Assembly: GCA_964023275.1 (NCBI GenBank)
Contig: OZ029918.1
Coordinates: forward strand, 37,859,477 to 37,923,476
Reading direction: 5' to 3'
Length of the DNA stretch: 64,000 nt
Source: Norana najaformis
Taxonomy: Eukaryota > Annelida > Clitellata > Crassiclitellata > Hormogastridae
Under the pieces are notes generated by a model, which saw nothing but the letters and a program-made list of their open reading frames with translations, searched no databases and was not told where the DNA came from. This document shows, piece by piece, positions 43,641 through 64,000 of this stretch; the first letter of the stretch is position 1; the number at the start of each line of letters is the position of its first letter. Position numbers and translations under genes: made by a program.

Positions 43641-45830
43641 CTATCAGAGGCAAAACATGTAAGTCCTCATATTTTAATCAGACAAAAGGTGAAATAGCAG
43701 GACGATAGTAACCGGATATCGGGGACTAGAATTCAAAGAGTTCTGTAAAAGAAGACATGGTTAGCCATCTCATCAAATAAATGTTTTATCAGCCAAAACC
43801 AAAGGTTTGGTCGGTAATTGCGTATGTATGCATGAGCATGTGTATGTATGTATATTTTTATGAATGCATGAATGTGTGTATGTTTTTTATGCACGTATGT
43901 ATGTATGTATGTATGTATGTAGGCTGTGTAAATATTATGGGCAAGTTGTTTACATAACGCGCCTCCGTTATATCATTTGGTATGGAGTAAATTTTGAAGT
44001 GAACACACGTCCTGCGATGCACTGGCCCCGTGTCCAGGGCCTTAGGTTTAGTTCATTGCCCGCTCAAGGGCCAAGAAAAGGAAATGAGCACCTCTCCTAA
44101 ATCCGTCTAGGACAGGGAACGTTTGCTTTGCATTACCCTACAGATGATGGGGTCATGGGAGAGTAGTTTACCTGGACGACGGTGTGTAGGAAGGAGACGG
44201 CGTAGAGCATAGGTCGCCACTGAGGCAGTGTGCTGATTTCTAGGAAATCCTGGGTTATGTTGTTGTAGGTTCTCTTCAGCCCGGCCTTGATGCCCTGAGG
44301 AGGCTCATTGGTAAACTTAATCGATATCTACTCAGATGAAACCATACACAAAACAATACGATGCTATTTAAATTTTAAAAATGCACCCTAAATCGCAATA
44401 CAATATCATACAACATCGTTCTTCCTCTTGTCCTTAATCGTAATCGTTAGGTCGAGATTTCTACAGCGCCCAACGAAAAGCTAAGTCGCGGGAACCAGCT
44501 TATTCACAAGCGCTCAGACAAAACAAAATCGATAGGCTGAAAAGGTTCGGTTCCAGGTCCAGATCCAAGAGTCAGAAAGGCAGACAGTCGGACGGCTACG
44601 GTGGATGATGTCTGAAATTGGAGAGGGAAGAGATAAGGGGAAGAGGAAGTATCAGAATAGCATTTGTGGAAAAGGAGTGTTTTAAGTTTTGAGTGACGAC
44701 ACGCGCAAAGATTGCAAGAGGTGAAGTGTTGGTGAGTTTGTATGATGGGTCAGATAATTGTAATTCTGGTGGGAGTTTATTCCACAAAGGTGGAGCAGGA
44801 TGAGGCGATGGCTAATTCATTTGACCTGGAGGAGGCCGATGGAGAACTTCGGATGGACTTCGGTTGTCAACCAGAGTCGAAACGAGTCGTGGATGTTTTC
44901 CGTCGTTATGACGATATCAAGCAACTCCTCCATAAATACCAGACCGAGATGACAGTTCTGCAGCAACGCCCAGCCTCCCTAGAACAGTTTCAGCAACGTA
45001 ACATAACAAAGCATAATAAAACGTAATAATAAAGCATAACATTGCATAGCTCTGTTCAGCGTAACATAGTATAGCATAACAAAACATATAAAATCATTAC
45101 ATATCTTAGCGTAGCATAGCATAACATAGCATAGCATAGCAAAACATAACAACAAAACATTACATAACATAGCATTAGCATAACATACCATAGCATAGCA
45201 AAACATAACATAGCATAGCATATCATAACATAGCATAATAGAACATAACAATAACACAATATGGAAAAGGCATAACATACATGCATACATACAAACGTAC
45301 TTACATACATACATATATACATACATACATATATATATACACATACGTAGATCTACACACATATATTTATCTAACTCATGACAATCACCATAAGACGTTT
45401 TAGCCTTAGTTCTCCAGTCAACCCCCAAATACTGTCACCAGATCCCCAATTTTTTACTACAAATTTATCTGAAACCCAAGAATGTGGTGTGCATTAGACA
45501 TAAAACCATGCTATTCAAAAGCTCAGATTTTTTGTTAATTTAGGCGCCATATAATTATCTAAGGCCAGCGACAAATAAACAAGTACAGATGCACGCTTAC
45601 CGATTGCATGAAGAGCGACAGTAGATTTCGTGCATGAACTTCCTGTCCCTGACCCATTGATATACATCGACATTCTAACACAGAATGGATTCCACTGATT
45701 ATTTAAAAAGCCAGCACCGATTGGCTAAAGTGTTCAGCAGTATTAGCAGCAGTAGTGGTAGTATTATTAATAGTAGTAGAATTGGTAGTACTTAGTAGTA
45801 GCAGCAGCAGCAGTTGTTGTGGTAACAGTG

Positions 45831-45865
<35 letters not shown>

Positions 45866-48800
45866 AGTAGTAATGGTAGAATTAGTATTAGCAGCAGTAT
45901 TAGTAGTAATGTTAGTATTAGTAGTAGTAGTAGCAGCATTAGTAGCAGTAAGTTCAGTAATTTGCGGTGTTGAATGATCTTATGGCTACCAAGGCTATTA
46001 AAGTCGCCCTTACCTCCAATGGTATGTTCAGTCCAGTCTATGCGATTGAAGAATATATAGTTTAGAATGGAAGCATGTCTAATTTAGTAGAAGAAGTAGC
46101 AGAAGCAGCACCCCAGTAGTAGTGGTATCACTATTATCATTGATATTAAGTGAACCTAATCCACTTTTCTTGGCCAGATCTTCGATGGCACTCGTGGGGT
46201 CGGAGCCCATCGACAGGAGACAGACAAGGGGAGTCCTCTTGTCGCTCTCTTCCCACATCGACCTCAGGTCCAGGATGACCGGCTCGACGTAGCGAGGTCC
46301 CATCGAGTCCGAAATGTACTTCCTGGCCTGAGAGAGAATCCGATCTGGACACCAGCATCTGAAGAAGCACCCAGGTCAGGAGAGATATGAGCAAACCAGT
46401 GTCTCAACATCTGAATATCTGATAATGCAGTAGAATACGGAAGCAGTAAAAAGTAGTACGTCTCAATAGCAAATTAAATGCAATAAAATAAAGTGCTGCA
46501 TTCAAGCCCCCACTTACATCATAATGGAGAACTGTGCAAGGCTAACTGAGTCCTTGCAGTGGGTAATGTCAGCAGTGGAATCACAAGCCAGAAGCGTGCA
46601 CAGTGTATACCCTGAACCTGTGGAATGATTGGGGGCCCGTACAAGCAACTGCATGCAAGAGACTCGTCAGAGTGCAATATGAGTTTCGTTTTCTCATAAG
46701 AATGTTTGAAAATTTTCTTTGTCGAGGCTGGCCTTGGAACGAGCTTCTCAGTAGATACCCTTTGGAATAATCTCCCGCCAGAATTGCGACATTTGTCTGG
46801 TCAATCATACGAACTCACCAACACTTCACCTCTTTCAGTTTCTGCGCAGGTCTTTCACTCAAGACTGAAAACACTTCTTTTCCAGAAATCTTATCCTGAT
46901 TCTTCCTCTTCCCCTTATCTCTCTTCTCGCTTCAATTTCAAACAGCATCCACCGTAGCCGTCCGACTGTCTGAGTGCCTGACTCCTGGATCTTGACCCTT
47001 TTGCCTATCGATTTTGTTATGACTGAGCGCCTGTGAATAAGCTGGTTCCCGCGACTTAGCTTTCGTTGGGCGCTTTAGAAATCTCGTGATTACGATTACG
47101 ATTACCCTGAAGCGATACTTTATAAATTTCCGGGATGAGTGGATGGACATAAAAATTTCATGGTGCCACATATGGTAGGTCTATCGCAGTTGTATCACAA
47201 ATGGAAATCTATCTATAGCAATGTAAATGTAAACGTCCGAAATAATAATGATAATAATTAGCAACTTCTAATGCGCCGGTGTCTAATGCACAAGGCACCA
47301 ACCGATGGCGCACCAAAACCAAGCCGCAATCAGGTCAATATCGAGAAGGTCAGTCCACAGGACAGAGAGCCAGCCTACGGTGGATAAGCAATTTGAAACA
47401 GGTAAGTTTTAAATTGAGAACGAAATGACAGCATAACAGACACAGGGAGAGAGTTCCAGAAATTTCTCAGCAAACATAAAAGCGGCAGTGATGATGATGA
47501 ACGCTGGCGCTACTTGGCGAATAATACAAGAACAAAAAAGCTTGTTTAGAAAAAGCGGCAAGCTGGGGTAAAGTTCTCAAAATTGGGAAGTTTGGGCAGT
47601 TGCCTTCATGGGGATTTTTTAAAGAAAGGAACATTTTACTGAACCACCGCGCATGTGCTTCACGCCGAATAGGATAGTATTCTAGAGGGGCTTACCGAAT
47701 GAGTAGAAGTTTGCGGAAAGTGTCGAGCATGGACCCGTAGTTGTCAGGGATCGGTTCTTCCTCCGGGGCTTCTTTGTCGAACCACTGCTTCCACATCTTC
47801 TCATTACGCTGGATCTACAACCAAGGCAGACAGATATCGCACGTAATGTAACGCCGCGAACCATTTCTATCGCGCCCTTCTACAGCGTCACAAATGCATG
47901 TTTATATGTATGCATTCATGCATGTATGTATGTTTGCCTACATATGTGTATGTATGTATGCACGCATGCATGTATGTATGTATGTGTATATGCATGTATG
48001 TATGTGTGCATGTATGTATATATGTGTGTATATGTGTATGCATGTATGTAAGTATGTATGTATATATGCATGTACTGTATGTATGAATGTATAAATGTAC
48101 ATTTTTTATGTATGTATTGTGTATGTATGTACTGTATGTATGTATGCATAGATGTATGTATGTATGCAGATACTTCATATAGCGCCTCACAAAAGCGCTC
48201 ATCAGAGTTTGACGTCTAACGTAATCTAATCTAATCAAATCTGACCAGAAGAGGAGTTTTCCTTAACAAGCGCTATATAAATATGCGATGATGACGGGAG
48301 ACTGAGCGGTAAATACTTGGTTGGTTATATCGCCAAAGCCTTGAACTTTTGAGAGCTCGACAAGGTTCAGCCACGTCATATCCGTTATCCACTTGCACGG
48401 TTTTGGTGCAACGGTATTCAGGTCGAGAGCAGCGCCACCTAGGCACAAAGAAAGTGCAGACGTTTGAAAAAATCATAGAATATCAGCAAACGATCTTTAG
48501 GTGAGCCGAACAGTTTTATAGTCTAACTTTATATACAGTTAAAGAGGAAACTAACAGCATAATATTTCATGTTATGTCATGTTATGTCCTGTTATGTTAC
48601 GTTATGTTATGTTAAGTCGAACAGCTTTAGGTCTGCAAGACAGCCACACTTAAGTACCTTAGGGAGTATCTTAAAAAGACGCTACATAAATAATCAACAA
48701 CACGGATACATAGATGCATACACATACATACCTACATACGGGCATACGTTACGCCATTACACTACAAGTAGATATCCTAAACACGACTGTTGCATTGTCT

Positions 48801-51800
48801 CGTCGTGCATGGGACATTTATATAGCGACGTTTGAATGGAACTAAAATATGTTATTGTAATATTATTTATTTATGTCTGCATTTATTAAGCGCCACTATC
48901 TAATGACTTAGCATCAATCTATGGCGCCGAGCAATTGTGAGTGAAGGACTTGCTCAAGGTCCCTACACAGTAACCGTCTCAGAGGAGTTTCGAACCCGTA
49001 CTCTCCGCGTTACAAGCCGAACACTCTCTCCAATAGGCTACCGTGCCCCTCTAGTACCAAGTGTGGTATCATTCTATAGGATCTGAGACAGCGGTTCAAG
49101 GAACACAGAGTAAACGTTTCTGGCTTGTAATTCCACAGCTGAAATTACCAGCGGCAGGGACTCGATGAGACACACACTGTTGTTCATCATGGGTGTAAGT
49201 AAAGTAAAGTACCACATATCCCACAAGTCACGTAGTGTAATTTCTGGTTTATATAGCGGCCTTCAATAGCGGTACCTTTGATGAGCACTTGAAATTCGTG
49301 GTGGCGTACGTGTCCCATCTGGAGATCCTTCTTCAGGGTGAGGAAGAGCGTCAGGAGGAACTTGTGCGTTTCGTAAAGTCCACGACACGCGTATCGGAAG
49401 ACTTCGAATGTCAAATAGTCGATGATGTTCAACAGTCGCTTGCTGGTGAAAAGAGATTTCTCGGATCTGGAAAACGAGGACAAGAATTCCGTATAAGCAC
49501 GCGGAGTGATTGATTGATTGATTGTCTGGTTGACTGATTAATTATTCATTTGACTGACCGATGCATTGGTCTGGTGACCTACTATGTAACAAGTTTTAAA
49601 AAGAATTTTCCCTTTAGGTTTAATCATGTGAAGTGGTTGAATGAAGACGTCAGATTGACTGACTAACTGACTGACTGACAGACAGACTGATTCACCTGAA
49701 TGACTGTTTAACTGACTGATTGTCTGACTGACTGTCTATCTGAATGACAGTCTGACTGATTGACTGACTGGCTGATTCTTGTCTGATTGACTGACTGACT
49801 GACAGACTGACTGTCTAACTGACTGACTGATTGACTGACTGACTGACTGATTGATTGACTGACTGACTGACTGACTGATTGACCTAGGCTAATCACTAGA
49901 CATGTCAACGTGAGGGATATATTCAATTGACCTTTGGAGCGACCTGTCGAAGAGCTGAAGGAACTGACGCAGGGAGATCTGATACATGCAGTTGACGAGA
50001 CTCATCTCACAGATGAGAAAGTAGAGAACGCTGCCACGCATTGCAACTAAAACACGATACAACAAGATCAGGGCAGGTCAGGTCAGGTCAGGTAAGGAAA
50101 GGAAATGAAAGGAAAGATGAGTTAAGATAAGAAAAGGCAAGGAAAGGAAACGTAGGGTAAAAAGTAAGGGAAGATAACGTAAACTAAGGAAAGGTAATGT
50201 AGGGTAAGGTAATACAGGATAAGATAAGGTAAGGTAAGAAAAAGCAAGAAAAGGAAAAGTATGGTAATTAAAGGTAAAGGAAGATAATGTAAGGTAATAT
50301 GAAGTAAGGAAAGGCAAAATGCAATATAATGAGAGGAAAGGTAATTTAAGGTAAGGCATTGTAAAGCAAGAAATGGTAATGTAGAGTAAGTTAAGGCATC
50401 AGTCTCCGATGTTAAAGCTTCGTCACAATCCGACAAATCAGATAGAAACCTCAAGTCAAGCAACGGAGTTGAAAAAGTTGAAAAAGACGAGTCTTTAGGT
50501 TAGACCTAAATAACATTAAAGAACTGACAAAAAGAACAGAACTAGGATGTGAATTAAGGCCACTCTAACCTGACCTGAATTCTAACCTAACCTGGCCGGA
50601 ATTCTAGCCAAACTTGGCCTGAATTCTGACCTAACTTGGCCTGAATTCAAAATCTAACTTGCCTGAATTCTGACCTAACCTGGCCTGAATTCTGACTTGA
50701 CCTGGCCTGAATTCTGACCTAATCTGGCCTGAATTCTGACCTAACCTGGCCGGAATTCTGACCTAACCTGGCCGGAATTCTGGCCTAACCTGGCCGGAAT
50801 TCTAACCTAACCTGGCCGGAATTCTTCTCTGGCAATGTTGATCTTGATTTCTGTGTCGGCAGCAATTGCCAACTTTTCGCTCACCTCAGCAGCCGTTTGT
50901 TTTGTTACAGCAAGCACATTTATCAGCGACTCATCATCTACGAGTGACCCCTGTGAAGCGCAGATAAACAGACAAACATCACTGTCATCACTCTGCAAGG
51001 AAATATCGCTATCTATTCGGTAGCACGTCGGGCATGTAATCCAACGATTAACGCCTGCTGAGCGGACTCCGTGTAATGACCCTGGACTAGTTGTTTGCGT
51101 AGCTATGTCTCGCCCCTCAGATTCAGATAATTATTGACCTTGCATGTAATCGTAATCCCGAGATTTCTACAGCGCCCAACGAAAGCCACGTCACGGGGAC
51201 CAGCTTATTCACAGGCGCTCAGTCAAAACAAAATCGATAGGCAAAAGGGTTCGGTTCCAGGTCAAGATCCAAGAGTCAGGCAGAGAGACAGTTTGACAGC
51301 TATGGTGGGTGGTGTTTGGGATTGGAGCGGAAAGAGGGAAAAGAGGAAGAAGGGGAGTGTATTAAGTGCATTAAATAGATACATCAAAAGACTATATCTC
51401 ACCGTTGAAATGACGATATATTAAGGCTAACAAAGTCTATATCCTGCCTGTATGGTCGTCAGCTTGTAGAGTAGATTTTCCTCGAGTTCTTTCATCTTTC
51501 GTTTGTTCGACATTACGTCTTCTACTAGTGTTGTTCTCTCTGATTCCAACTCCTAGAAAAGACACAAATAGACCTGGAGCCACAAGAAAGTATTTAAGAT
51601 GGACCCAGTGCATTCCAACAGAAAGTAAACTTTTGTGAACCTACATTGTCTAGTCTTGTCTTCAACCGTCCTCGAGCCGAGGACTGTCTGCACCACGGAC
51701 AGTTTTGTGCCATCTGCTTCTGTCTCTCGTCTCCTGTAATAACTGGTCGAACGATAATTCAGTCCACGCCTTGATGTTATCGATCCATGTCATCTTGGGT

Positions 51801-54800
51801 CTTCGCCTTGTAACGGGATCCAGGAATTGTAATCGTAAACTCGAGATTTCTACAGCCCCCAACTAAAGCTAAGTCGCAAGAACCAGCATATTCACAGTCG
51901 CCCAGTCAAAACAAAATCGACAGGCAATAAGGGTTCGGTTCCAGGTCAAGATTCAAGAGTCTAGCAGGCGGTTGGCTACGGTGGGTGGTGTTTGGAATTT
52001 GATTTGCAGGATTGATAAGAGGAAGACGCGGAATCAGGATAGGATTTCAAACCACACTAAGCAGTGGTCTGTTCAGCTTTCTGGAATAGGCTGCCTAGCA
52101 ACCTACGACTATAACTCCTTTGCCTTTCTTTGCCTCTTTTTCGTAAGCGATTGAAAACCAGTTGTTCGATGAGTCTGCCTTAAAGAGACGTTATATAAAT
52201 CTGTTGTCACAGTTACAAGAAATAAATAAATAAATATATTAATTAATCATTATTAGATTACTAACGGCTTTTTCCGACAAGATCACTCTTCCAAGCAGCT
52301 GATCCTCGAGACCTTTCATAGTAACCGTGAAATCGATGATAATAGTCTGAGCGCTGACCTGTGAACACAAGCAAGACAGTAGTGAAACCCAATCCAATCT
52401 CACCTCCAATCCAATCCAATATAATCTAATCCAATCTAGCCCAAGTCTAATCTTATCCTAAACTATATTGCACCTACCAATCTATTCAAATAAAAGCTAA
52501 CGTTACTTAAACCAGTCCAATCCCTATTTGCCTGGCTAGCTACATTGGTTAACGCGTACATCGAGGCGCGTCTATGCGTGAGGATGCCGGTTCGCATACC
52601 CATCGTGGCTTATTTCAGAGATTTAATCTCGGGCTAGCACGAGCTGTACACGGGGACCTTAAAGCGCGGGGCAGCGGTGGTGAAGGATCTCACCCGATAA
52701 ATTCGTTGAAAAATGAGCAGGGTCGAGGCCATACGGTCGCTATAGGAAAACGTGCACATCTACATTCATTTTCGGATCGATTTCTTTGCAACGACCCACC
52801 TCAGGAGTGTAGGCTGGGTTTGGAAGTTTCGTCGTGATGTAGAGATAGAATCCCTTCATATAGTCACATTCCTTGTCGCCAACTTTAACCTACAGTCAAC
52901 ATCCAATCCACACTGGTAACTCTATGTAGCCAGACATTAATATAATATCTAACCTTTGCAACTTCGATAGATACTAATCTAATCTAATCTTAACAACTAC
53001 TATTTATTAATCTAATTTAATCTTAGCACCTTCAATCGCCCCGCTATAATGATCTATACATTAATAAATGAACATGGTAAATTGCAACTTACGTATCTAT
53101 TTTATTTTTGCGATTATACTTGTGTCAGGTCAGTAAATTTGAATCTACGGCGCCAGACAACTTGTCCAAGGTCGTTATAACACAGTTCGATGAACAGTGC
53201 ATTTCGCACTGGACTAAGGCAGCGCATACGGCGTCAACAACCTAATGGACGACCTGAAGCTACTGTATCGCGTCGCCGGGGCCGATGGTAAGGGCATAAC
53301 GTTCATCTTCACCGACAACGACATCAAGGACGAGGGCTTCCTCGAGTACATCAACAACGTCCTGAGTTCCGGCGAAGTGGCCAACCTCTTTGCCAGGGAC
53401 GAGATGGACGAGATCCAACAGGGACTGATCAGTGTCATGAAGAAGGAGTTTCCGCGACGCCCACCTACCCAGGAAAACCTCTACGGCTACTCAGTGGCGG
53501 ATTTAGCTACAGGTGCGGGAGGGTGCGGTTCGCTCCCCGGGCACCTCTTAGTTATATGCCGGCGCCCCTCAGACCAGACCCGTGCATGGTGGGCTGCCAG
53601 AATGTGGCGCTCCTCTGGAAATGCCCTTGCCCCCAAGCAAGCAATCCTGGGTCCTCCATTGGCGCACCCTCATAGAATTGGCTCATTACAAGAGTAACTA
53701 CTGCAATGACTAGTAGTAAAGTAACGACTACTTGTGGTAGGAGTGCCTCTGGCCATCGGGTGTGATGCTCACTTTGAGAGATGTGCCCGATTTGATGAAG
53801 TTCTTCTCAAGGACGTTGTCGAGGCAAGGGTCGAGTTCCTGGTCGACATTTTCGATGAGCATTGGTCGACCGAGCGACAGACAGTCTTCGAGATGAGTAC
53901 GAAAGTATTTGTGATTCAGCGAAGTCACCTGGGAACAACAAGAATAATATCATTAATATTATAACGTAAATAAAATAACAATTCAGCATTAAAATGCCAT
54001 TTATTTCTGCACTACCTTTTCTCTGGCATAACCGAATGAGACGTAAAGTTACCAATGTCCTTAATAGCCTACGGATCATTTTCCTTCTCATCTTTTTACT
54101 ATTCCTCCTCTTAATCCTCGTCCTCTACTTCCTCTTCCTCTTCCTTCTCCTCTTCTTATACCACTTCCTCTTCTTCCTCTTTCTTCTTCTTCCTCTTCCT
54201 CTATCTCTAGCTCTTCTTCGTCTTCTTCTTCTTCGTTTTCGTCTTCCCCTTGCCTCCCCTACCCTAAAGCTCTTCCTCTTCCTCATCCTCGTCCTGTATT
54301 CTTTCTCTTCTTTTTCTTCTTCCTCTTCTTCCTCCTCTTCTTCTTCCTCTTTCTCTTCTTCTTCTTCCTCTTCCTCCTTGTCCTCCTCTTCTTCTTCTTC
54401 CTCTTCTTCTTCCTCTTTCTCTTCTTCTTCTTCCTCTTTCTCCTCGTCCTCCTCTTCTTCCTCATCCTCTTCCTCTTCTTCTTCCTCTTCCTCTTCTTCT
54501 TCCTCTCCCTCTTCCTCTTTTTACATAACACATCCTCTTCTACCAGTAGCACAGCGTGTAACACATAACGTAAATGAGCGTAAATCGGACTGCTTGCTAC
54601 CTGCAGTTCGTTGTCTTTCTCGCGGTTCTTGACCCAGGCCTTTCCCTGGCCCTGTGGATCGATGAGCAGCGGAAATCGAGCAGCCTTCGTCACGATGATC
54701 CCGTTCTGGATAGACAGCTCGTCGTTCGGAAGGCCCTGTAGGTTCCACTCGCTGATCGTGGTGTTGTCGACAAGAGCGCTGATCAGATTGAGGTCCGCCG

Positions 54801-57800
54801 AGCACGGAATGCGACGCGTCTTCAGCTGCTTCTGCCAGCTGTCTATCAACCTTGTCCGGTACTCCTGGTTGAAGGGACCCGTGTAGGACAGGAAGCCAGT
54901 CAACAAAACGACGTCTCCGATCAGCCTGCAGAGGGAACAACACAGTCCAATCCGATCCACCATTTGACGATTTATTTGTTATTTAGTTTGCTACTTTATA
55001 CATACATACTTACATACGTACATACACAAACATGCATACATGCATGCATACATACAAATATACATACATACATATATACATATATACATACATACACACA
55101 TACATACATAGATACTCAAATATACATACATATGTACAAAAATACTTATAGATACTCAAATATACATATATATATACATACATGCATACATACATACAAA
55201 AACTCAAATATACGTACATACATATACACATACATACATAGGTACTCAAACATACATACATATATACATACATTCATACATACATACAAAAACTCAAATA
55301 TACGTACATACATATACACAAACACACATAGATACTCAAATATACATACATACATATATACATACATGCATGCATATATACACATACATACATACATACA
55401 TACCTTTCTGACTACCTTTCTGCCTGATTGACTCTTGAATCTTGACCTGGAACCGAACCCTTCCTTCCTAACGATTTTGTTTTGTCTGAGCGCCTGTGTA
55501 TAAGCTGGTCCCCGTGACGTGGCTTTCGTAATCGTAATCTCGAGATTTCTATAGCGCCCAACGAAAGCTAAGTGGCGGGAACCAGCTTATTCACAGGCGC
55601 TCAGTCAAAACAAAATCGCTAGGCAAAAGGGTTCGGTTCCAGGTCGAGATCCAGGAGTCAGGCACTCAGACAGTCGGACGGCTACGGTGGATGGTGCTTG
55701 AAATTGAAGCGAGAAGAGAGATAAGGGGAAGAGGAAGACTCAGGATAAGATTTCTGGAAAAGAAATGTTTTCAGTTTTGAGCGAAAGACCAGCGCAGAAA
55801 CTGAAAGAGATGAAGTGGGCGCTGTAGAAATCTCTCGTTTACGATTACGATATTGTTTTTTGCATAGATAGAAAACTGTAGAAATGTTGGACTCACATTT
55901 CGATCTGCGACTTGAACTCCTTGCTCTGATTGGTCCACCTGATCTTTTCGCCAGCCAATCCGTTGATGAGGGTCGTTGCGGCGTTCATCTTCCTCTTGCA
56001 GGCATCGGCGTCATCCATGAGGACCTGCTTCTCGGCCATCGCCGCATCGTAGACCTTCTGCACCACGGCCAGTTCCGCCTCCTTCTCGTCCAGCAGGGCC
56101 TGCGCCTTGTTCAGTTCTTTCGTGGCCGTGCCAAGTCGAGCCTCTTGAACTGCCAGGTTGGCCTATGATATGAAACGCTAGTTAATGTATGTCAGCTGTT
56201 ATGACTCTAGTTTAAAATGCTCACGTAATCTCAGCTGTTAAGACTCTAGTTTAAAATGTTAATGTATGTCCAGCTGTTATGACTCTAGATTAAAATGTTA
56301 ATGTATGTCCAGCTGTTAAGACTCTAGTTTAAAATGATAACGTATTCTCAGCTGTTAAGACTAGTTTAAAATGTTAATGTATGTCCAGCTGTTAAGGCTC
56401 TAGATTAAAATGTTAATGTATGTCCAGCTGTTATGACTCTAGATTAAAATGTTAATGTATGTCCAGCTGTTAAGACTAGTTTAAAATGTTAATGTATGTC
56501 TAGCTGTTAAGGCTTTAGATTAAAATGTTAATGTATTTCCAGCTGTTAAGACTCTAGTTTAAAATGTTAATGTACACTGTGTCCGAAAAAATTCCAAGGC
56601 TTTACGGTAAATATGAAAATAATTAGTAAACATTAATCGATTTTTAAAATTCCAAAAACAGTTTAATCCTGAAATATTATTTGCACTATAATTGTTGTTT
56701 TGGCGTAAAAATTTTATAACAATTTTGTCTTCCTCGCTGAACGCCATTTTTCTAGCAACTTTCTTTACAAAATATAAAATTCAAATACGTCACTGTGACG
56801 TAATTTTAAACGGGGGCGTTAATAAATTACAAAGAATTTTGTTGGTAATTATATATTTCAGGATTAAACTGTTTTTGGAATTTTAAAAATCGATTAATGT
56901 TTACTAATTATTTTCATATTTACCGTAAAGCCTTGGAATTTTTCCGGACACAGTGTATGTCCAGCTGTTAAGACTCTATTTTAAAATGTTAATGTATGTC
57001 CAGCTGTTAAGACTCTAGTTTAAAATGTTAACGTATTCTCAGCTGTTAAGACTAGTTTAAAATGTTAATGTATGTCCAGCTGTTATGACTCTAGATTAAA
57101 ATGTTAATGTATGTCCAGCTGTTAAGACTCTAGTTTAAAATGTTAACGTATTCTCAGCTGTTAAGGCTCTAGATTAAAATGTTAATGTATGTCCAGCTGT
57201 TATGACTCTAGATTAAAATGTTAATGTATGTCCAGCTGTTAAGACTCTAGTTTAAAATGTTAACGTATTCTCAGCTGTTAAGACTAGTTTAAAATGTTAA
57301 TGTATGTCCAGCTGTTATGACTCTAGTTTAAAATGTTAATGTATGTCCAGCTGTTAAGACTCTATTTTAAAATGTTAATGTATGTCCAGCTGTTAAGACT
57401 CTAGTTTAAAATGTTAACGTATTCTCAGCTGTTAAGACTAGTTTAAAATGTTAATGTATGTCCAGCTGTTATGACTCTAGATTAAAATGTTAATGTATGT
57501 CCAGCTGTTAAGACTCTAGTTTAAAATGTTAACGTATTCTCAGCTGTTAAGGCTCTAGATTAAAATGTTAATGTATGTCCAGCTGTTATGACTCTAGATT
57601 AAAATGTTAATGTATGTCCAGCTGTTAAGACTCTAGTTTAAAATGTTAACGTATTCTCAGCTGTTAAGACTAGTTTAAAATGTTAATGTATGTCCAGCTG
57701 TTATGACTCTAGTTTAAAATGTTAATGTATGTCCAGCTGTTAAGACTCTATTTTAAAATGTTAATGTATGTCCAGCTGTTAAGACTCTAGTTACAAATGT

Positions 57801-58032
57801 GAATCGTTGAATCACCAGGTTAGCCTACTCTATGAATCGCTAGTTAGTGTATGCTCAGGCGTTAACATATTAGTTAAGAAGATGTATTGTCGTTGGATTT
57901 GTGTGAATCTGCTTGTGCCTGAATACTACAGTGATGGATATAGGTAACACACTTTCCTGCTGTTCCAGCCAAATTTGTCTGAATGCTTTATCTTAATCTA
58001 GCTCTATCTCTATCTCTAACTATATATATATA

Positions 58033-58122
<90 letters not shown>

Positions 58123-61049
58123 TGTCAATCTATCTGTCTATCTCTGTCTCTCACTCTCTTCTCACTCCCTTCTCAATATCTTTCTCCTGTCTCTCACTTT
58201 CTTGTCTTTCTTTCTGTCTCTCTCTCTCTTTCTGTATCTCACTCTCTTCTCTCTGTGTCTTTCTGTCATCATCTTCCAAGATCTTTAGCCTGAACGAACC
58301 TTGAGCGGAAGGACCTCCTTGTTGATTTCGTAGAAGGAGGTCATGGCCTTGGCCCACGAGGCGAGACCAGCGACATCGCCGCAGACCTTCTTGGCCGATT
58401 CCATCGTGAAGTCTTCCATCGTGATATAAGGCTGCATCAGTTCAACCGTCTCCTCGTTGATCGTGTCCTTTGGAAACTGCAGCAGCAACTGGAGGAATCC
58501 AGTGGCGCCAAGAAGCTGCAGTCGAAACACAAGATGCTATGCAATGAGATGTAAGGTAACTGGACATCCAATCTAATCCAATCTTATCGTAATCGTAATC
58601 CCGAGATTTCTACAGCGCCCAACGCAAGCCGTGCCGCGGGGACCAGCTTATTCACAGGCGCTCAGTCAAAACAAAAATCGATAGGCAAAAAGGTTCGGTT
58701 CCAGGTCAAGATCCTAAAGTCAGGCAGAGAGACAGCGTGGCAGCTACGGGTGGTGGTGTTTGGGATTGGAGTGGAGAGGGAGATAAGAGGAAGAAGGGGT
58801 GTCAGGGTACGAACTGTGAAAGAGGAATGTTCTGAGTTTTGAGTGAAGCAGAAATTGCAAGCGGTGGAGCATCGATAAGTTTATATGATGGGTCAGAAAA
58901 CTGCGCAATTCTGGGGGTAGTTTATTCCAGAGGGGTGGGGCAGCTATGGCTATGGAGCGATTACCAAATTTTAAGGATGAGGTGACGGGAGGGCGGAGAA
59001 GTGTTAGGGCAAAAGAGGAGCGGGTTAATGTTAATGCACTGGCATCGGGCGACTGTTAACCTAATCTAACCTAAAGACTTCTATAGCGCCGTTATTATAG
59101 TCTCCAATGCATCAGTCAATGGTCGCTTCAAGTCAAAATCTCAGTCAAAATCATAATCCGTTGGAGAAGCTGGGTCGAATTCTGGTAGGTCAGAGAAACC
59201 AGAAGCCAGGCTACGGTGGGTAAGCAAGTTGGAAGAGATACGTCTTTAGTTAGACCACCTGAACGACATCAAAGAATTATTATTATTCGTTTATTGATCC
59301 CAAAAAGAAATTGACAACAACCAGCATAAAAGTTTGACATGAAACATTCTCAGGTTATCGGGAACAAGTGGTAGACCCAGATGGAACCATAGTCCCGCTT
59401 AATTAGGGCCACCAATTAATATGCAATACCAGTTGGCGACGTTGTCATATATAGATTTTAATTCTTAACTATAAAAATTATAAGCTCACAAACATGACCT
59501 GAATTGACAGAACTACTTGAACTGGGCAGTGAATTCTAAAGCTTTGGACAAGTTACCGTGAAGGCCTGAGAGCCCAAACTGTTTTAGTTCCTTGGGAGTT
59601 TTGCTTTTGACTCGTACGCTGTCTAATTCGCCATGACACTGGTGCAAGTTCTTCAGTGCAAGCTCAGTTCAGTAACCTGTACTTGAACAGCGTGACACGG
59701 TGTTATTCGGTAGAGCACTGGCTCTGTAATATATCGATTGAGGGTTTGAGCCAGCTGCGTGTAACGATTGTAGATAAGTTTTTCACACACTTGTCTCGTT
59801 TCAGATTTAGAGTTACTGACCTTTCGGGCGTAAATAAAGTAAATTAGATAAATAAAATTGAACAAAACAGATAAAATAAATCAAATAAAACAGATCAGCG
59901 GCCTGAGCTTTCGGTAACTGACCTTGAGCGATTCTCCCCAGGAAGGCTTGGGGCAAGCTCTTTCCGGATCCTGGACGACCGGATCCAGTTTCTTCTGGAA
60001 GAGTATCAGCACACAGTCCATGATGCGCATGATGAGGTGCGGCGGTTTGGCCAGCTTCCTCACGGTCGCGATATGCGCTGCTTTGATAGTCTGTAAAATA
60101 GATAGAATCGTCAAAGCAAAAGTTGTGAAAGTTCGTAATGGATACTAAACTAAGGTAGATTAGATTACATTGATTAGATCAATTGATTCAACCGTCTGAA
60201 ATACACTGACGTCAGAATGTTGTTGACTATCCGACCCATCCTACTAACTCACACACTTTGCAACTCTCGCAAAATTTCCTTCATTTAAAGCTGAAATCAA
60301 TCTTCTTCCACAAATCCTAAGGATTCCTTCTAATCCCTCTCGACTCTTCAATTCTACACACCCAGCGTAATCGTCTGACCGTCAACTTGCCCGACCCTTA
60401 GACATCGACCTGGAAACTGCACCTGATACTACCTGCCTACCGACTGATACAATTCCAAACTCCACCGTCTGACTGTCTGCCTGCCTGACTCTTGGATCTT
60501 GACCTCAAACCAAACCTTTCCTGCCTATCGATTTTGTTTTGACTGAGCGCCTTTGAATAACCTGGTTCCCGCGATTTAGCTTTCGTTGTGCGCTTTAGAA
60601 ATCTCAAATATACAGACTACAATTACGATTGAGTTGATACTAAGAACATGTGAATGAGGTGCTTCCGGCGACTAAGATTACTATTATGATTAGATTGTGT
60701 CGTTCACCTGTAGTGCTGCCTCTGCTTCTTCGAGTGCTGGTCGAGCTGCTTCGAGTTTTTCTTCGGCGACGCCTTTGTCAACTGCAATGTCGTTAACAAT
60801 CGTCTGTGCCTTGTCCTTGACCTTTTGGACCTCAGCCTTCACCTTCTCGGCTGCCACTGTGCTGGCGGCAACTTCTGCAAGCACCTAACACAAACATATG
60901 GCAGGGACAGTGGTGTTAATAAAGTAATAATGATGATACTACTGTACTACCAGTATACCGCTACTGCTACTACTACTACAACAACTACTACTACTAATGA
61001 TATTGATGATGATGATGATAACAACAATAATAATAGTAGTAGTAGTAGT

Positions 61050-61087
<38 letters not shown>

Positions 61088-63352
61088 GTAGTAGTAGTAA
61101 AAATAATGATGATGATGATGATGATGATTCTACTGTATTACCACTACCGCTACTGCTATAGTTACTGCTACTGCTAACACTACTACTACTACTACTGCTA
61201 CCACTACCACCACCAACAACAACAACAACAACTTCAACAACAGCAACAATAATAATAATATACAATTTTCAAGTGTTGTTATAGGTACTTGTTGCATTCT
61301 TGGTCAGAAGATGTTTTAAATAGATAAATATCGAAACGTAAACACACATATTTATAAATGAACAAAATTGCATATAGAGCAAATAAATCCTTCAATATAG
61401 TTTAACAAACATTCGACCTTGTCAGCCTTCTCGTTGGCGGCTGCCAATTCCTTCTCTTTGATGACGAGCTCCTTAGCGAGGATATCGACAGAGACACTGG
61501 CCTCATCCAACTTCAGCAGCCCTGTATCCATCCGCTTGGCCATGTCGTTGATGAAGCTGTACTTCGTTGCGTAGATCTTCTTATAACCGTCCAAGAACGA
61601 AAGAAACGACTTCGGGGTCACGTGTGCCTGACGCCGGAACCTAGGAACAAAACAGACCCCAAACCCTGAGAACAAAAGCTTGGGGGACTGATGGGAACGG
61701 GAAAAGTAAGCTTAAGTCATTCACCGCAGTGTGAAAAGTTTTCGGTGGAAGGTGTGTGGAAGAGATGACTTAATAAACTACCAACCATATAATATTAGCC
61801 TTAGACGCGTGAGTACGTGGTCCATGTTCCATTTAGTACATTCGCAAAGGACAGCATACATATAACGCCAGCGCCATATTGCTAATAATAATTCTCATTT
61901 TTCTCAGCTTAAACCCAACCCAACCTGAGAATTCCTCTCCCCATTCTGTATCTCTGGTCTTCTTGCAACTTAGACTTGGTTCTTGACATGGCATCTTTGG
62001 ACAACCCCACTGACTTGACGCAAAATCTGTGCCCTGCGCTTAGCTTCAAAGAAACGCTTTAGAAATGTCTAGTTTACGATTACGATTACAAATAACATAA
62101 GAACAAAAAGGTTGTATCAAACGGTAACCAACAGGAGATTTTCTTAGAAGGGACACTTTCCCGAACTAGCGTGCAGACGGTTGACGCCGGATAGTCTAGT
62201 AGTCACAATTTCTGGCTGACCTTTGGAAGTAGCTGGTGCAATTTTCGGCGACGTTGTCATGGATCGTGCCCATCGTTTCGACGAGCTGGACCTTGGATTC
62301 GTCTGTGCAGACGATGTTGTACTTGCCGAGGAAGTGTGACGACACTGCGATGAGGGCGTCCTTCGGCCACCGACTGAACCAGTCCATCGTGCAGCCGGAT
62401 ATGAGTCCGGCAAATTTAAGCGAACGATTGCGGAACTTCTCGCCAACCTATACCAATGAGTAAAACAATGCCGTCTACTATCTACCTGTATGATCAGTTC
62501 CCCTTGGCTTTTCCACAGGGCTCGCCGTGGAATTTGGCTTGCACAGTGATTTTGCTTAGCAGCGACCACCGACTGAGGCCTTGAGCGATATTACAGTGGC
62601 GCTCTAGAAGTTTTTAGATTATTATTATTATTATTTATTATTATTATTATTATAATAGTTATTATTATTATAGTTATTGTTATTATTATTATTATTATTA
62701 ATATTATTATTAATATTATTATTATTATTATTATTATTATTATCATCATCATCATCATTATCAGTGGCTCTCGACCTGGAACTTAATAACCTGGAACCTA
62801 AGCTGTCCATCGATCTTGGATTAACTGAGTGTGTGTGAATAAGCTGGTTCCTGCGACTTAGCCTGGGCGCTGTAGAAATGTGGAGTTACCGATTACGATT
62901 GTTACTATTACAACTACTACTACAACTACAATAACCACCACCACCACACCACCACCACCACCACCCCCACCATCACCACCACTACTAAAACTGTTGCAGG
63001 CCTATGTGTTGTTGTTAGCGTTGTGTTACTTACGGGTGAAAAACAGAGGACGATGTGAAGATTGTTCCTGGCACGTGACAGGAAGTAGCCGTAGAGGTTT
63101 TCCTGGGTAGGTGGGCGTCGCGGAAACTCCTTCTTCATGACACTGATCAGTCCCTGTTGGATCTCGTCCATCTCGTCCCTGGCAAAGAGGTTGGCCACTT
63201 CGCCGGAACTCAGGACGTTGTTGATGTACTCGAGGAAGCCCTCGTCCTTGATGTCGTTGTCCGTGAAGATGAACGTTATGCCCTTACCGTCGGCCCCGGC
63301 GACGCGATACAGTAGCTTCAGGTCGTCCATTAGGTTGTTGACGCCGTATGCA
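35771..63352 (-). CDS. axonemal outer-arm dynein heavy chain, DNAH5/DNAH8 type, C-terminal 1,640 residues (partial gene)
   Basis: Twenty-nine minus-strand exons, all in phase, run from AAA4 to the stop at 35771. Their coordinates are in the five domain entries. The joined product aligns end to end with the C-terminal third of vertebrate DNAH5/DNAH8: [20 protein letters not shown], the stalk with [106 protein letters not shown], and the end [17 protein letters not shown]. These are force-generating heavy chains of outer dynein arms in motile cilia. The ending WILRG..LLCDIK and the [19 protein letters not shown] motif favour the DNAH5/8 class over DNAH9/11/17, by recall rather than by tree. AAA1-AAA3 and the tail lie beyond the right edge. 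Introns are unusually rich in satellites. Confidence 0.95.
36100..36335 (-). mobile_element. LINE family A 3' ends, other antisense copies
   Basis: Copy 36100-36335 starts about 45 nt upstream of the last dynein exon. Further antisense copies of the same family: 4333-4455 (degenerate), 4938-5065, 11521-11660, 18653-18860, 51146-51370, 51828-52040 and 55529-55850. All show GATTTCTACAGCGCCCAACG or a decayed version and CAGGCGCTCAGTCAAAAC. Confidence 0.85.
37083..37515. mobile_element. inverted pair of LINE family A 3' ends
   Basis: Antisense copy at 37083-37290 and sense copy at 37300-37515 meet tail-outward with almost no spacer, so about 200 nt of the dynein transcript can fold back on itself. 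The right arm ends about 18 nt from the donor of exon 37533-37722. Confidence 0.88.
38195..38555 (+). mobile_element. LINE family A 3' end with a 112-nt insertion
   Basis: The family A order is broken inside the CTATCGATTTTG segment: TTTTGCC at about 38341 is followed by about 112 nt of unrelated sequence before TCTCGATTTTG at about 38455. The insert starts TCTAGTACTG and ends GAGGCTTCT; I recognise no element in it. Confidence 0.8.
39290..40370. repeat. 41-nt minisatellite with nine-unit higher-order repeat
   Basis: About 26 units of 41 nt (core AAGAACAACAAAAGCAA, then TCTAACCAA and GCTAACAATC). A block of variant units starting at 39771 recurs, apparently identically, at 40140, a shift of 369 nt, which is nine units. 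The array ends within 10 nt of the dynein exon donor at 40378, so the intron essentially begins with it. Confidence 0.93.
40690..41090. repeat. (GTATATGTATGCAT)n microsatellite attached to a LINE 3' end
   Basis: A 400-nt GTAT/GCAT run in the dynein intron between 41474 and 40532. It abuts a fragment at 41090-41400 with an RT tail ([13 protein letters not shown] on the + strand) that ends AGGCGCTATATTAAG and then a short ATAC run. Confidence 0.92.
41720..42135. repeat. about 32-nt minisatellite in a dynein intron
   Basis: Around 12 copies of CAGTTTTTACAATTTCACC with AGTTGTAATTTCA, with some half-units missing. It lies between exons 42650-42751 and 41474-41637. Confidence 0.9.
42140..42430 (-). 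mobile_element. LINE family B 3' end with RT tail
   Basis: On the minus strand it encodes [19 protein letters not shown] and [15 protein letters not shown]. Its 3' end reads GATTGATGCGTTGNNCAT-like sequence, then GCGCTAGGGATTC and an ATTAG/AATCT tail. Other members: 17690-17960, 33547-33730, 59070-59275 with 59505-59580, 63480-63660, and weaker ones at 8620-8700, 26020-26200 and 30005-30120. At 59276-59500 another element (TTTATTGATCCCAAAAAG) is nested inside a family B copy. Confidence 0.85.
42775..43000. repeat. (GTAA)n and (AGTC)n microsatellites
   Basis: AAGTAAGT repeats followed by GTCAGTCA repeats, starting about 20 nt into the acceptor side of exon 42650-42751, which uses the + strand CCTACG as its branch-side flank. 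Confidence 0.9.
43318..43490. repeat. dispersed duplicate with TTATGTCATG array, copy 1
   Basis: A unique-looking segment (GTTTTATAGTCTAACTTTA, ACAGTTAAAGAGGAAACTAA) followed by a 10-nt array (ATGTTATGTC). The same segment with a shorter array is at 48507-48617, in another dynein intron. Confidence 0.92.
44172..50046 (-). CDS. dynein heavy chain: AAA5/6 linker and AAA6
   Basis: Exons 49932-50046, 49276-49466, 48317-48438, 47696-47814, 46156-46358, 45601-45674, 44826-44978 and 44172-44327. They encode [155 protein letters not shown] and [16 protein letters not shown]. These correspond in order to the AAA6 module of DNAH5/8. The 74-nt exon 45601-45674 is short but both phases fit. A LINE 3' end starts within about 30 nt of the donor of exon 44826-44978. 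Confidence 0.93.
44437..44800 (-). mobile_element. LINE family A 3' end (antisense on +)
   Basis: On the minus strand it reads [10 protein letters not shown] and [13 protein letters not shown] before the 3' UTR; the ATTACG-type tail is at 44437. Its 5' truncation point is about 25-30 nt from the donor of dynein exon 44826-44978, so the intron is LINE almost from its first base, in sense with the gene. Confidence 0.88.
44990..45375. repeat. CATAGCATAA array and (CATA)n
   Basis: About 28 decamer units of the CATAGCATAA type followed by a CATA run to 45370, starting 10-15 nt upstream of the acceptor of dynein exon 44826-44978. Confidence 0.92.
45725..45965. repeat. (AGT)n microsatellite
   Basis: A degenerate AGT/AGC triplet run in the dynein intron between 46156 and 45674, followed by a GATCTTATGGC...GGCTATTAAAGTC motif that belongs to the short dispersed repeat of the Slo introns. 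Confidence 0.9.
46730..47110 (+). mobile_element. LINE family A 3' end with RT tail, longest sense copy
   Basis: Encodes [20 protein letters not shown] and [17 protein letters not shown], the typical C-terminus of L2/CR1-clade reverse transcriptase ORFs, followed by the family A 3' UTR and an ATTACGATTACG tail. It lies between dynein exons 47696-47814 and 46156-46358. Confidence 0.88.
47225..47480 (-). mobile_element. LINE family D 3' end
   Basis: Antisense order: AATAATAATGATAATAATTA tail, GCAACTTCTAATGCGCCGG, CAAGGCACCAACCGATGGCG, and a region that on the minus strand reads [19 protein letters not shown]. Shorter copies: 23125-23310 and 33867-34005. Confidence 0.82.
47895..48178. repeat. 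(GTAT/GCAT)n microsatellite
   Basis: A 280-nt run of GTATGTAT and GCATGTAT, ending in a LINE-like TATAGCGCC motif at about 48178-48186 and a following AATCTAATCTAATC tail. Confidence 0.92.
48507..48617. repeat. dispersed duplicate with TTATGTCATG array, copy 2
   Basis: About 110 nt nearly identical to 43318-43450, in the same orientation, with fewer array units. It begins about 70 nt upstream (in transcript direction) of exon 48317-48438. Confidence 0.92.
48890..49055 (-). mobile_element. tRNA-derived SINE (family F)
   Basis: On the minus strand: GGGGCACGGTAGCCTATTGG, a CTTGTAA anticodon-loop-like stretch, GGGTTCGAAACTCC as B box, then AGGGACCTTGAGCAAGTCC and a GGCGCCAT end. Another copy is at 27950-28080. 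Tail-only copies at 7140-7255, 15640-15735 and 18518-18625 end GGCGCTTAATAAATGCAGA. Confidence 0.8.
49505..49890. repeat. (TGAC)n tetranucleotide array
   Basis: GACTGACTGATTGACTGACT-type repeats, broken by non-repeat DNA at 49555-49640, in the dynein intron between exons 49932-50046 and 49276-49466. Confidence 0.92.
50075..50400. repeat. GGTAA/GGAAA purine-rich array
   Basis: Irregular AAGGTAAGG and GGAAAGG repeats, on the transcript strand CCTTACC-like, so it does not supply donors in the sense direction. It starts about 40 nt upstream of the acceptor of exon 49932-50046 and ends in a LINE fragment with GTTAAAGCTTCG. Confidence 0.88.
50560..50822. repeat. 22-nt minisatellite derived from an exon end and splice donor
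   Basis: About 12 units of ACCTAACCTGGCCGGAATTC-type sequence. The unit is the reverse complement of the last bases of dynein exon 50812-50950 plus its donor (GAATTCCGGCCAG/gttagg). The exon end is thus the last unit, and the intron starts with a ladder of near-copies of its own 5' splice site. Confidence 0.93.
50812..54925 (-). CDS. dynein heavy chain: AAA5
   Basis: Exons 54601-54925, 53773-53928, 52800-52889, 52266-52358, 51448-51552 and 50812-50950. They encode [128 protein letters not shown] and [20 protein letters not shown]. Exon 51448-51552 ends at a GC donor (cag/gcagga). Exon 50812-50950 ends where a 22-nt minisatellite of its own 3' end begins. The intron between 53773 and 52889 carries the inverted AAA4-exon copy. 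Confidence 0.93.
53221..53491 (+). pseudogene. inverted copy of the dynein AAA4 exon inside a dynein intron
   Basis: Reading the + strand, this segment repeats the first about 268 nt of exon 63034-63352, from its acceptor boundary (cag, then GCATACGG) to GGCTAC. Protein sequence is identical over the copied codons and I see only one or two base differences, one a silent GAC to GAT. It lies antisense to the host gene, in the intron between exons 53773-53928 and 52800-52889. It has no in-frame upstream exon (a TAA precedes it) and after 53491 it runs directly into sequence resembling a hAT transposon end. It is therefore a non-functional exon copy, a Pack-type capture, or an assembly artefact. 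Confidence 0.85.
53491..53690 (+). mobile_element. possible hAT-type transposon end next to the exon copy
   Basis: Starting at 53492 the sequence CAGTGGCGGATTTAG resembles the terminal inverted repeat of many animal hAT elements, and the next 170 nt are GC-rich and unlike the surroundings. I could not find the opposite terminus or an 8-bp target duplication, so the element is partial or misidentified. Confidence 0.4.
54065..54530. repeat. 460-nt polypyrimidine/polypurine tract in a dynein intron
   Basis: Almost uninterrupted C and T on the + strand (CTTCTTCCTC-type repeats), so the pre-mRNA carries a long GA-rich run between exons 54601-54925 and 53773-53928. Such mirror-repeat tracts can form triplex (H-) DNA, and purine-rich RNA often binds SR proteins; both are inferences here. 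Confidence 0.92.
54995..55410. repeat. (CATA)n microsatellite with ACTCAAATATACATAC units
   Basis: A 415-nt CATA array in which GATACTCAAATATAC-type insertions recur every 60-70 nt, suggesting a longer hidden period. It ends at an antiparallel pair of LINE 3' ends (55420-55850). Confidence 0.92.
55897..60884 (-). CDS. dynein heavy chain: stalk coiled coil and microtubule-binding domain
   Basis: Exons 60708-60884, 59923-60090, 58300-58515 and 55897-56162. The first continues CC1 ([17 protein letters not shown] and [18 protein letters not shown]). The next two make the microtubule-binding tip and its base: [58 protein letters not shown]. The last is CC2 ([19 protein letters not shown] and [18 protein letters not shown]), returning to the ring at [13 protein letters not shown]. 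The tip contacts tubulin and the two helices relay nucleotide state from the AAA ring. The intron between 56162 and 58300 holds the largest minisatellite in the window. Confidence 0.93.
56180..57795. repeat. 38-39-nt minisatellite with higher-order repeat
   Basis: About 30-odd units of the type GTATGTCCAGCTGTTAAGAC plus CTAGTTTAAAATGTTAAT, interrupted by the MITE at 56575-56955. Variant units (TATTCTCAGCTG, GACTAGTTT without CTCTA, ATTAAAATG) recur in the same order about 386 nt apart: marker units near 57031, 57146 and 57263 return near 57417, 57532 and 57649. This is a ten-unit higher-order repeat present twice. It fills the dynein intron between exons 58300-58515 and 55897-56162. Confidence 0.93.
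56575..56955. mobile_element. Tc1/mariner-type MITE with about 100-nt terminal inverted repeats
   Basis: The element begins CACTGTGTCCG and ends CGGACACAGTG. The first roughly 105 nt and last roughly 105 nt are near-perfect reverse complements (through TTCCAAGGCTTTACGGTAAA and AAACAGTTTAATCCTGAAAT). It is bounded by TA on both sides, the target choice of Tc1/mariner transposases. No transposase ORF is present in its 381 nt, so it is a non-autonomous MITE. It sits inside the 39-nt minisatellite of the stalk intron and is present once, so it probably inserted after most of the array had expanded. Confidence 0.88.
58020..58270. repeat. (TA)n/(TC)n microsatellites
   Basis: A perfect CT run and then a roughly 60-nt TA run, followed by degenerate TCTCTGTC sequence that reaches within 30 nt of the donor of exon 58300-58515. 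Confidence 0.93.
58584..59055 (-). mobile_element. LINE family A 3' end, longest copy
   Basis: Starts with the tail TCGTAATCGTAATC and runs through GATTTCTACAGCGCCC, GGCGCTCAGTCAAAACAAAA, the GGGAGATAAGAGGAAGAAGG region and the RT tail, to about 59055, where family B begins. This copy reaches furthest 5' of any family A copy here. Confidence 0.88.
60950..61265. repeat. mixed trinucleotide array
   Basis: CTA, ATG, AAT, AGT and CAA triplet runs in succession in the dynein intron between 61418 and 60884. The switch of triplets without interruption suggests slippage-driven turnover. Confidence 0.92.
61418..63352 (-). CDS. dynein heavy chain: AAA4 C-terminal part and start of stalk
   Basis: Exons 63034-63352, 62221-62447 and 61418-61640. 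The first encodes [17 protein letters not shown], the Walker-B-like [19 protein letters not shown] and the end [10 protein letters not shown], all of AAA4. The second has [20 protein letters not shown], the AAA4 lid region. The third starts with [18 protein letters not shown] and runs into heptad-like [18 protein letters not shown], the beginning of stalk helix CC1. The first exon begins with one base of a split codon; the preceding exon is outside the window. Confidence 0.93.
62615..62990. repeat. (TTA)n and (CCA)n arrays around a LINE 3' end
   Basis: TTA run at 62625-62760 following a LINE fragment (62480-62620, end GTGGCGCTCTAGAAG), then a LINE family A end (62765-62895), then ACT/CCA triplets to 62990, close to the donor of exon 63034-63352. 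Confidence 0.9.
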
Positions 63353-64000
63353 CTGCGACGAAATATCAGTTTACAGTTCTAATCTAATCTAATCTAATAA
63401 ATATAATAAAATCTAATAAATATAATATAACAAAATATAATATAATATAACATAACATAATAAATATAATATAATATATAATCTAATCTATTCTAAAGAC
63501 TTCAATAGAGCCGCTATCATAATGCCTAAAGCATCAGTCGATGGTCGCTTCAAGTCAAAACATTTCGCAAACAAAATCATAATCCGTTGGAGAAGCCGGG
63601 TCGAATTCCAATAGGTCGGAGAAACCAGAAGCCAGTCTCAAGTCCAAATTGAATAGTCATTTGTTTCAACGTGCTCCTCCACCAGGACAGTGTTAACTCC
63701 AAGTGTAAATGTTTTTCTATCGTATGGTCTCAACACTCGCCAAGGATTCTTCGTTCAGTCGACGGACATATGGCGTATTAACAGATGCATTACTTATTAC
63801 TTACTTACTTACCCTGATAATGATTTAATGAATTGATCGGGTGAAGATCAATCACCAACGCTGCCCGTTTGAATGGTCGTCACGCCAGTCAAGGTCCTTG
63901 TGTACGGACCATGCTAGCCCGAGATTCAAATTTCTTAAACGAACCACTATCGGTATGCGAACCGGCATCCTCACGTCCAGGAGTGTCTAAACGAGCACTT

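Follow-up and report, generated by a model that had tools for sequence, protein, structure and literature searches.

Recent inverted copy of a dynein heavy chain exon in a later intron of its own gene, a probable scar of break repair at a MITE end

Organization of the dynein gene

The window, meaning the whole stretch of 64,000 nucleotides analyzed here, codes on its minus strand for an axonemal dynein heavy chain of the DNAH5 type. The joined translation of exon E1, the donor of the copy described below, and the next exon matched DNAH5 (8j07) with E = 5e-86, and its best match was a 4,730-residue chain of 9fqr that carries another name (E = 2e-92). Ten exons, from 63352 to 52800, were located by visual inspection, guided by open frames, splice sites and the known sequence of dyneins, and the gene extends upstream beyond the window. 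The features at the locus are listed in Table 1. The exons on both sides of the host intron, 53773-53928 and 52800-52889, join in frame (SLK to VKVGDKE), so the dynein gene is unbroken at the copy. Loss of a coding exon at this place was also considered and was ruled out by the presence of exon 52800-52889 (VKVGDKE...). Since the copy is located in the same DNAH5-type gene as E1, between exons that join in frame, both arms belong to one transcription unit, within which the copy is transcribed approximately 9.6 kb and eight introns later than the exon. These positions agree well with the original prediction, which had placed exon and copy in a single dynein transcription unit, with the copy in a later intron. 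On the same strand downstream of the dynein gene, open frames within 9165-12988 (for example, 9977-9165) resemble exons of a beta-ketoacyl-ACP synthase by eye.

Table 1. Features of the donor exon, the inverted copy and the adjoining MITE, in window coordinates
Feature	Position	Strand	Remarks
Donor exon E1, dynein heavy chain AAA4 region	63034..63352	-	Open frame; acceptor TCGCAG, donor GTAAGT
Copied stretch of exon E1	63084..63348	-	265 nt; 2 differences from 53227-53491
Inverted copy of exon E1	53227..53491	+	265 nt; antisense in the dynein transcript
Left edge	53219..53226	+	GCAGCGCA; 7/8 microhomology with the exon edge GCAGTGCA (63349-63356)
hAT-type MITE, 170 bp	53492..53661	+	Left end CAGTGGCGGATTTAG, right end CCTCCATTG; dispersed family
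Expected 8-bp target-site duplication, right member	53662..53669	+	GCGCACCC
Host intron, holding the copy and the MITE	52890..53772	-	Donor GTGAGC, acceptor CTGTAG; flanking exons in frame

The inverted copy and its uniqueness

In comparison of the window with itself, positions 53219-53491 on the plus strand were found to be the reverse complement of 63084-63356, without gaps over 273 nt, at 98.9% identity and far above chance (E = 3e-138). The opposite orientation that had been predicted for exon and copy is thus confirmed, and the predicted length of 268 nt with one or two differences was close to the actual 273 nt with three. The differences are C for T at 53223, T for C at 53286 and C for G at 53313, of which the latter two are silent in the dynein frame and the first falls on exon nucleotide 1. 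After assignment of the leftmost eight bases, as explained below, the strict copy contains 2 differences in 265 nt, or 0.75% (95% interval 0.09-2.7%), and these values support the recent origin that had been proposed for it. The donor stretch is still in place alongside the copy.

The assembly (608,420,607 bases in 17 contigs) was searched with the 273-nt sequence, with scoring of the best candidates only. Five matches were obtained, consisting of the two arms and three places on contigs C9 and C5 that are 73-76% identical, and no third near-identical place was present among the best candidates scored. Other exons of the gene also match there at 66-87%, in keeping with dynein paralogues. Nine other dynein exons, when searched against the assembly, gave nine matches to themselves and 13 of 66-87% identity, and in no case a near-identical second place, so the inverted copy represents one isolated event rather than a general tendency of the dynein gene. 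It is a real, recent and inverted templated insertion of an exon fragment in a later intron of its own gene.

Right junction and the age of the MITE

At its right border, the match to the exon stops at 53491, at a point within the exon, and the MITE begins with the very next base. An initial search for the MITE family gave 3,384 candidates, of which the best 40 were scored; all of them matched, and one was the MITE itself. The 19 best-scoring siblings among the other 39 (L007-L025) were examined. Their ends are CAGTGGCGG and CCGCCACTG or nearly so, which we take to be typical of hAT elements, and they have short terminal inverted repeats. The 8-mers flanking the siblings agree at 6 or more of 8 positions in 14 of the 19, as expected of the 8-bp target-site duplications of hAT elements. 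The flanks of the MITE in the host intron agree at only 3 of 8, and an intact duplication of its own is absent. It should be noted that the remaining five siblings (L008, L010, L019, L023 and L024) also fall below 6 of 8, so a missing duplication is by itself not rare. Over 18 nt, the left end of the MITE has the commonest form, which 9 of the 19 siblings share without a difference, and its right end displays 3 differences in 18 from the commonest form.

Relative age can be determined from divergence. Measured against the consensus of the 19 siblings, the MITE has diverged by 8.4% (6.9% outside CpG), and the siblings themselves by 5-11%. At a divergence of 8.4%, the probability of finding two or fewer differences in 265 nt is 3e-8. 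The MITE, at 8.4% as against 0.75%, is therefore older than the copy and was in place long before it. For the same reason, insertion of the MITE into a longer copy that it later split was rejected in its simple case, as was also indicated by the sequence to the right of the MITE, which is not the rest of the exon.

Left junction

The left junction contains both microhomology and a possible trace of the missing duplication. The bases GCGCA at 53222-53226 are five of the bases of the left duplication expected from the right one, and it is proposed that they survive as a remnant of the left target-site duplication of the MITE. Since this remnant would cover 53223, the C at that position is better read as a residue of the target site than as a mutation of the exon T, and with 53219-53226 thereby assigned to microhomology and remnant, the copied stretch proper begins at 53227. 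If the remnant is accepted, CCC of the duplication is missing at the left edge; poly(A) is absent. An exact five-base prefix near the left edge was found for 236 of 20,000 random 8-mers from the window and for 501 of 20,000 shuffles of the duplication, and one covering base 53223 for 82 of 20,000 random window 8-mers, giving a chance level of approximately 0.4-2.5% depending on the null, each null having been selected after the remnant had been seen. A looser search, for 6 of 8 bases anywhere in 602 nt, was uninformative, being matched by 1,795 of 2,000 shuffles. A 10-mer, GCAGCGCATA, common to this junction and exon 59925-60093 was spotted by eye and is taken as chance.

Several other sources of the copy or its flank were considered. 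A processed retrocopy of the LINE type was rejected because the copy is neither preceded by the end of the previous exon, ATAACTCTGACTCG, nor followed by poly(A), and a duplication of its own is absent. Carriage of the copy within a transposon was rejected because the left flank could not be matched up to the junction with any dispersed element: with very common words skipped, the flank matched only itself, and a further search gave weak matches, the best of them ending near 53179. A structured or tRNA-like origin of the flank found no support, with zero Rfam matches in 50-64 kb and zero ARAGORN genes (bacterial code) in the window. Just to the left of the copy, 53195-53211 forms a palindrome, CAGTGC-ATTTC-GCACTG, whose ends resemble hAT termini and whose adjacent 8-mers are unmatched by eye.

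An artefact of assembly or library preparation, in the form of a chimeric molecule, is very improbable. Whole-genome amplification typically yields inverted chimeras within about 10 kb, but two separate junctions are present here, one of them exactly at a transposon end, together with two internal base differences. Moreover, the contigs are of chromosome size, and a chimera would not be expected to coincide with a missing target-site duplication.

Proposed origin by repair of a break at the MITE end

The arrangement is most readily understood as the scar of break repair, in which a hAT-transposase break at the left end of the MITE was filled from the exon and rejoined to the element; a probability of about 0.62 is assigned to this reading. 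In the germline of an ancestor, the old hAT-type MITE in the host intron would have suffered a double-strand break at its left end, the cutter most likely being a hAT transposase that used the only terminal repeat to have stayed intact. Before this event, the site would have had GCAGCGCACCC directly before the MITE. The flanking end would then have been shortened by the three bases CCC, part of the target-site duplication, and the remaining ...GCAGCGCA would have annealed to GCAGTGCA at the edge of exon E1. Synthesis primed there would have copied 265 nt of exon sequence from a DNA or RNA template, after which the new end would have been joined without homology to the intact MITE end, leaving a templated insertion that is antisense in its own gene by happenstance. 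An empty allele is predicted to have ...GGCAGCGCACCC directly before CAGTGGCGGATTTAG.

Opening of a hairpin at a flanking end typically costs a few flanking bases. The untouched MITE end and the flank short of three bases thus fit hAT chemistry, in which the transposon end is set free and the flanking DNA is capped by a hairpin, as described in the available part of PMC4763223. hAT transposase domains are plentiful in the assembly: at least 150 were scored among 817 candidates, and eight of those scored lie in open frames 531-684 codons long. Among four hAT loci examined, two (L038 and L039, both 1321-2514) carry the same 1,194-nt element at 99.7% identity, each with an intact 8-bp duplication, and nine further places share their domain score; together these features suggest that this family was recently mobile. 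The ends of these hAT-like elements, TAGGGCTG and CAGCCCTA, differ from those of the MITE, and a transposase element with the termini of the MITE was absent from the four loci examined. The elements that moved recently have other ends, so the agent of the break is inferred; the repair route and the order of joining are inferred likewise. It also counts against transposase cutting that the element is still present, so that a one-ended cut or a partly repaired excision is needed.

Repair of a break, or template switching in replication, could also have proceeded in the absence of a transposase, for instance through cleavage or stalling at a hairpin of the inverted MITE ends followed by microhomology-primed synthesis, the MITE end being then a weak point and not a target. 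The MITE family looks old, with siblings 5-11% from their consensus, which counts against a recent transposase for its ends and favors this route. Microhomology of 7/8 was seen at one end only, which likewise fits the end-primed synthesis and end joining described in the portion of PMC11724301 at hand. However, hAT cutting (PMC4763223, in the part available) would be expected to give just such a join at the very terminus, beside an undamaged MITE end and a shortened flank, and a hairpin from imperfect arms of approximately 18 nt would be weak. On balance, an origin of this type is regarded as rather unlikely.

The nature of the template is a separate matter. Reverse-transcribed dynein RNA, giving a cDNA patch resembling the class 2 insertions of humans, would leave the event otherwise the same and overlaps with break repair at the MITE end; it is tentatively given somewhat less than even odds. 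The strict copy lies wholly inside one exon, and a 265-nt stretch within one exon is possible at 117 of 1,889 spliced positions as against 117 of 10,289 genomic positions, counts that rest on the approximate borders of the ten exons. The human insertions are themselves argued to be derived from RNA in the accessible text of PMC5110952. Against an RNA template, neither the previous exon nor poly(A) is attached to the copy, and a donor 9.6 kb away in the same gene suits DNA too. Confinement to one exon thus leans to RNA by approximately 5:1, and the closeness of the donor leans to DNA.

Pairing of exon and copy in RNA

The original prediction held that exon and copy could form a long duplex in the pre-mRNA and act upon the dynein transcript itself. 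The former is physically possible: formation of the exon-copy duplex is energetically favorable, with a calculated value of -597 kcal/mol, for arms that are 9.6 kb and eight introns apart. That the copy is a functional antisense arm, pairing with the exon in the pre-mRNA and then being diced, edited, masked or back-spliced, is nevertheless highly improbable. The complementarity is long and nearly perfect, and both internal differences are silent, in line with the predicted presence of only silent change. The latter point is too weak to argue from, however, as it rests on two changes: a random change in the copied exon is silent 21.7% of the time, and two of two would be silent with a probability of 0.047 without selection. 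The distance of 9.6 kb and the eight introns between the arms also count against such a function; since the copy is transcribed after these introns have been made, exon E1 is likely to be spliced first.

Other inverted pairs nearby point in the same direction. Within 41,464-64,000, BLAST gave 24 inverted pairs of at least 80 nt, a number that includes the exon-copy pair and overlapping ones and corresponds to 18 distinct arm regions. The exon-copy pair is by far the longest near-perfect one, which speaks for the opposite view; identity of at least 90% was observed in 3 of the 24, and 99% is reached by only one other pair, of 105 bp. In 16 of the 24, the loop is shorter than that of the exon-copy pair, and the 105-bp pair (99%, with a loop of 175 nt) is a far better local hairpin.

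The arms of the latter, 56573-56677 and 56853-56957 (99% identical), are the inverted ends of an element that interrupts a minisatellite of approximately 39-bp units at 56181-57807, and this interruption resembles a transposon inserted in satellite. Most of the other inverted pairs are made by a dispersed repeat of approximately 100-290 nt, present in numerous copies of both orientations in dynein introns over 44435-60624 (for example, at 51146, 55528, 58589 and 60465-60605).

The expected effect of the copy at present, judging from the sequence, is none, or weak and incidental double-stranded RNA in unspliced transcripts, and a self-targeting gene-silencing system is unlikely. Very little credence is likewise given to a combination in which an antisense arm made by a transposase break would act through unspliced or re-paired transcripts, yielding diced or edited double-stranded RNA and thereby a young, self-limiting feedback loop.

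Comparison with known systems

Templated filler insertion is already known in plants, yeast and humans, and the exon copy is a new instance of this known kind. In rice, fillers of 1-123 bp were present at DNA-transposon break sites in 58 of 94 excisions according to the part of PMC4423477 available, and maize examples of 1-131 bp, copied from nearby sequence, are given in the part of PMC2686159 available. Here, similarly, a break next to a transposon end would have been filled with a foreign segment, at the cost of a little flanking sequence. In contrast to the rice fillers, which follow excision of the element in the account given there (PMC4423477), the MITE is still present, and the present filler, at 265 bp, is longer than the rice and maize examples cited, is an inverted piece of an exon of the same gene, and occurs in an animal-type genome. 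Human class 2 templated sequence insertion polymorphisms, as characterized in the accessible portion of PMC5110952, are similar in lacking a duplication of their own and poly(A), in their small deletion and microhomology, and in their intact donor. Unlike those, the donor here is 9.6 kb away in the same gene, and the site of the break can be recognized as a transposon end. Yeast break insertions, in the extract of PMC11724301 used, share priming of one end at a microhomology with end joining of the other, and inverted copies occur among them; the event here differs in being natural, with the source of the break deduced and an exon as donor. Hairpin-RNA loci and inverted duplications of target genes also hold sense and antisense coding copies in one transcript, on the evidence of the available parts of PMC10317233 and PMC3237417. 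Compared with these, the arms here are separated by 9.6 kb and eight introns, one of them serves as an exon of the mRNA itself, and the arrangement is known from sequence alone. In the literature searched for intronic inverted copies of exons and for fillers linked to transposases, the same arrangement in a gene's own intron was not found, although this does not prove its absence.

Implications

The locus provides a clean example of templated insertion in which the break can be localized to the end of a transposon and both events can be dated relative to each other. A search rule is offered on this basis, namely MITEs without one target-site duplication that adjoin a near-identical copy of unique sequence. 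The anatomy of the sequence accounts for the copy without any RNA function, and thus caution is advisable for a claim of self-targeting. Furthermore, exonic antisense sequence is seen to arise within its own gene in one step, and such sequence is the proposed raw material of hairpin-RNA genes.
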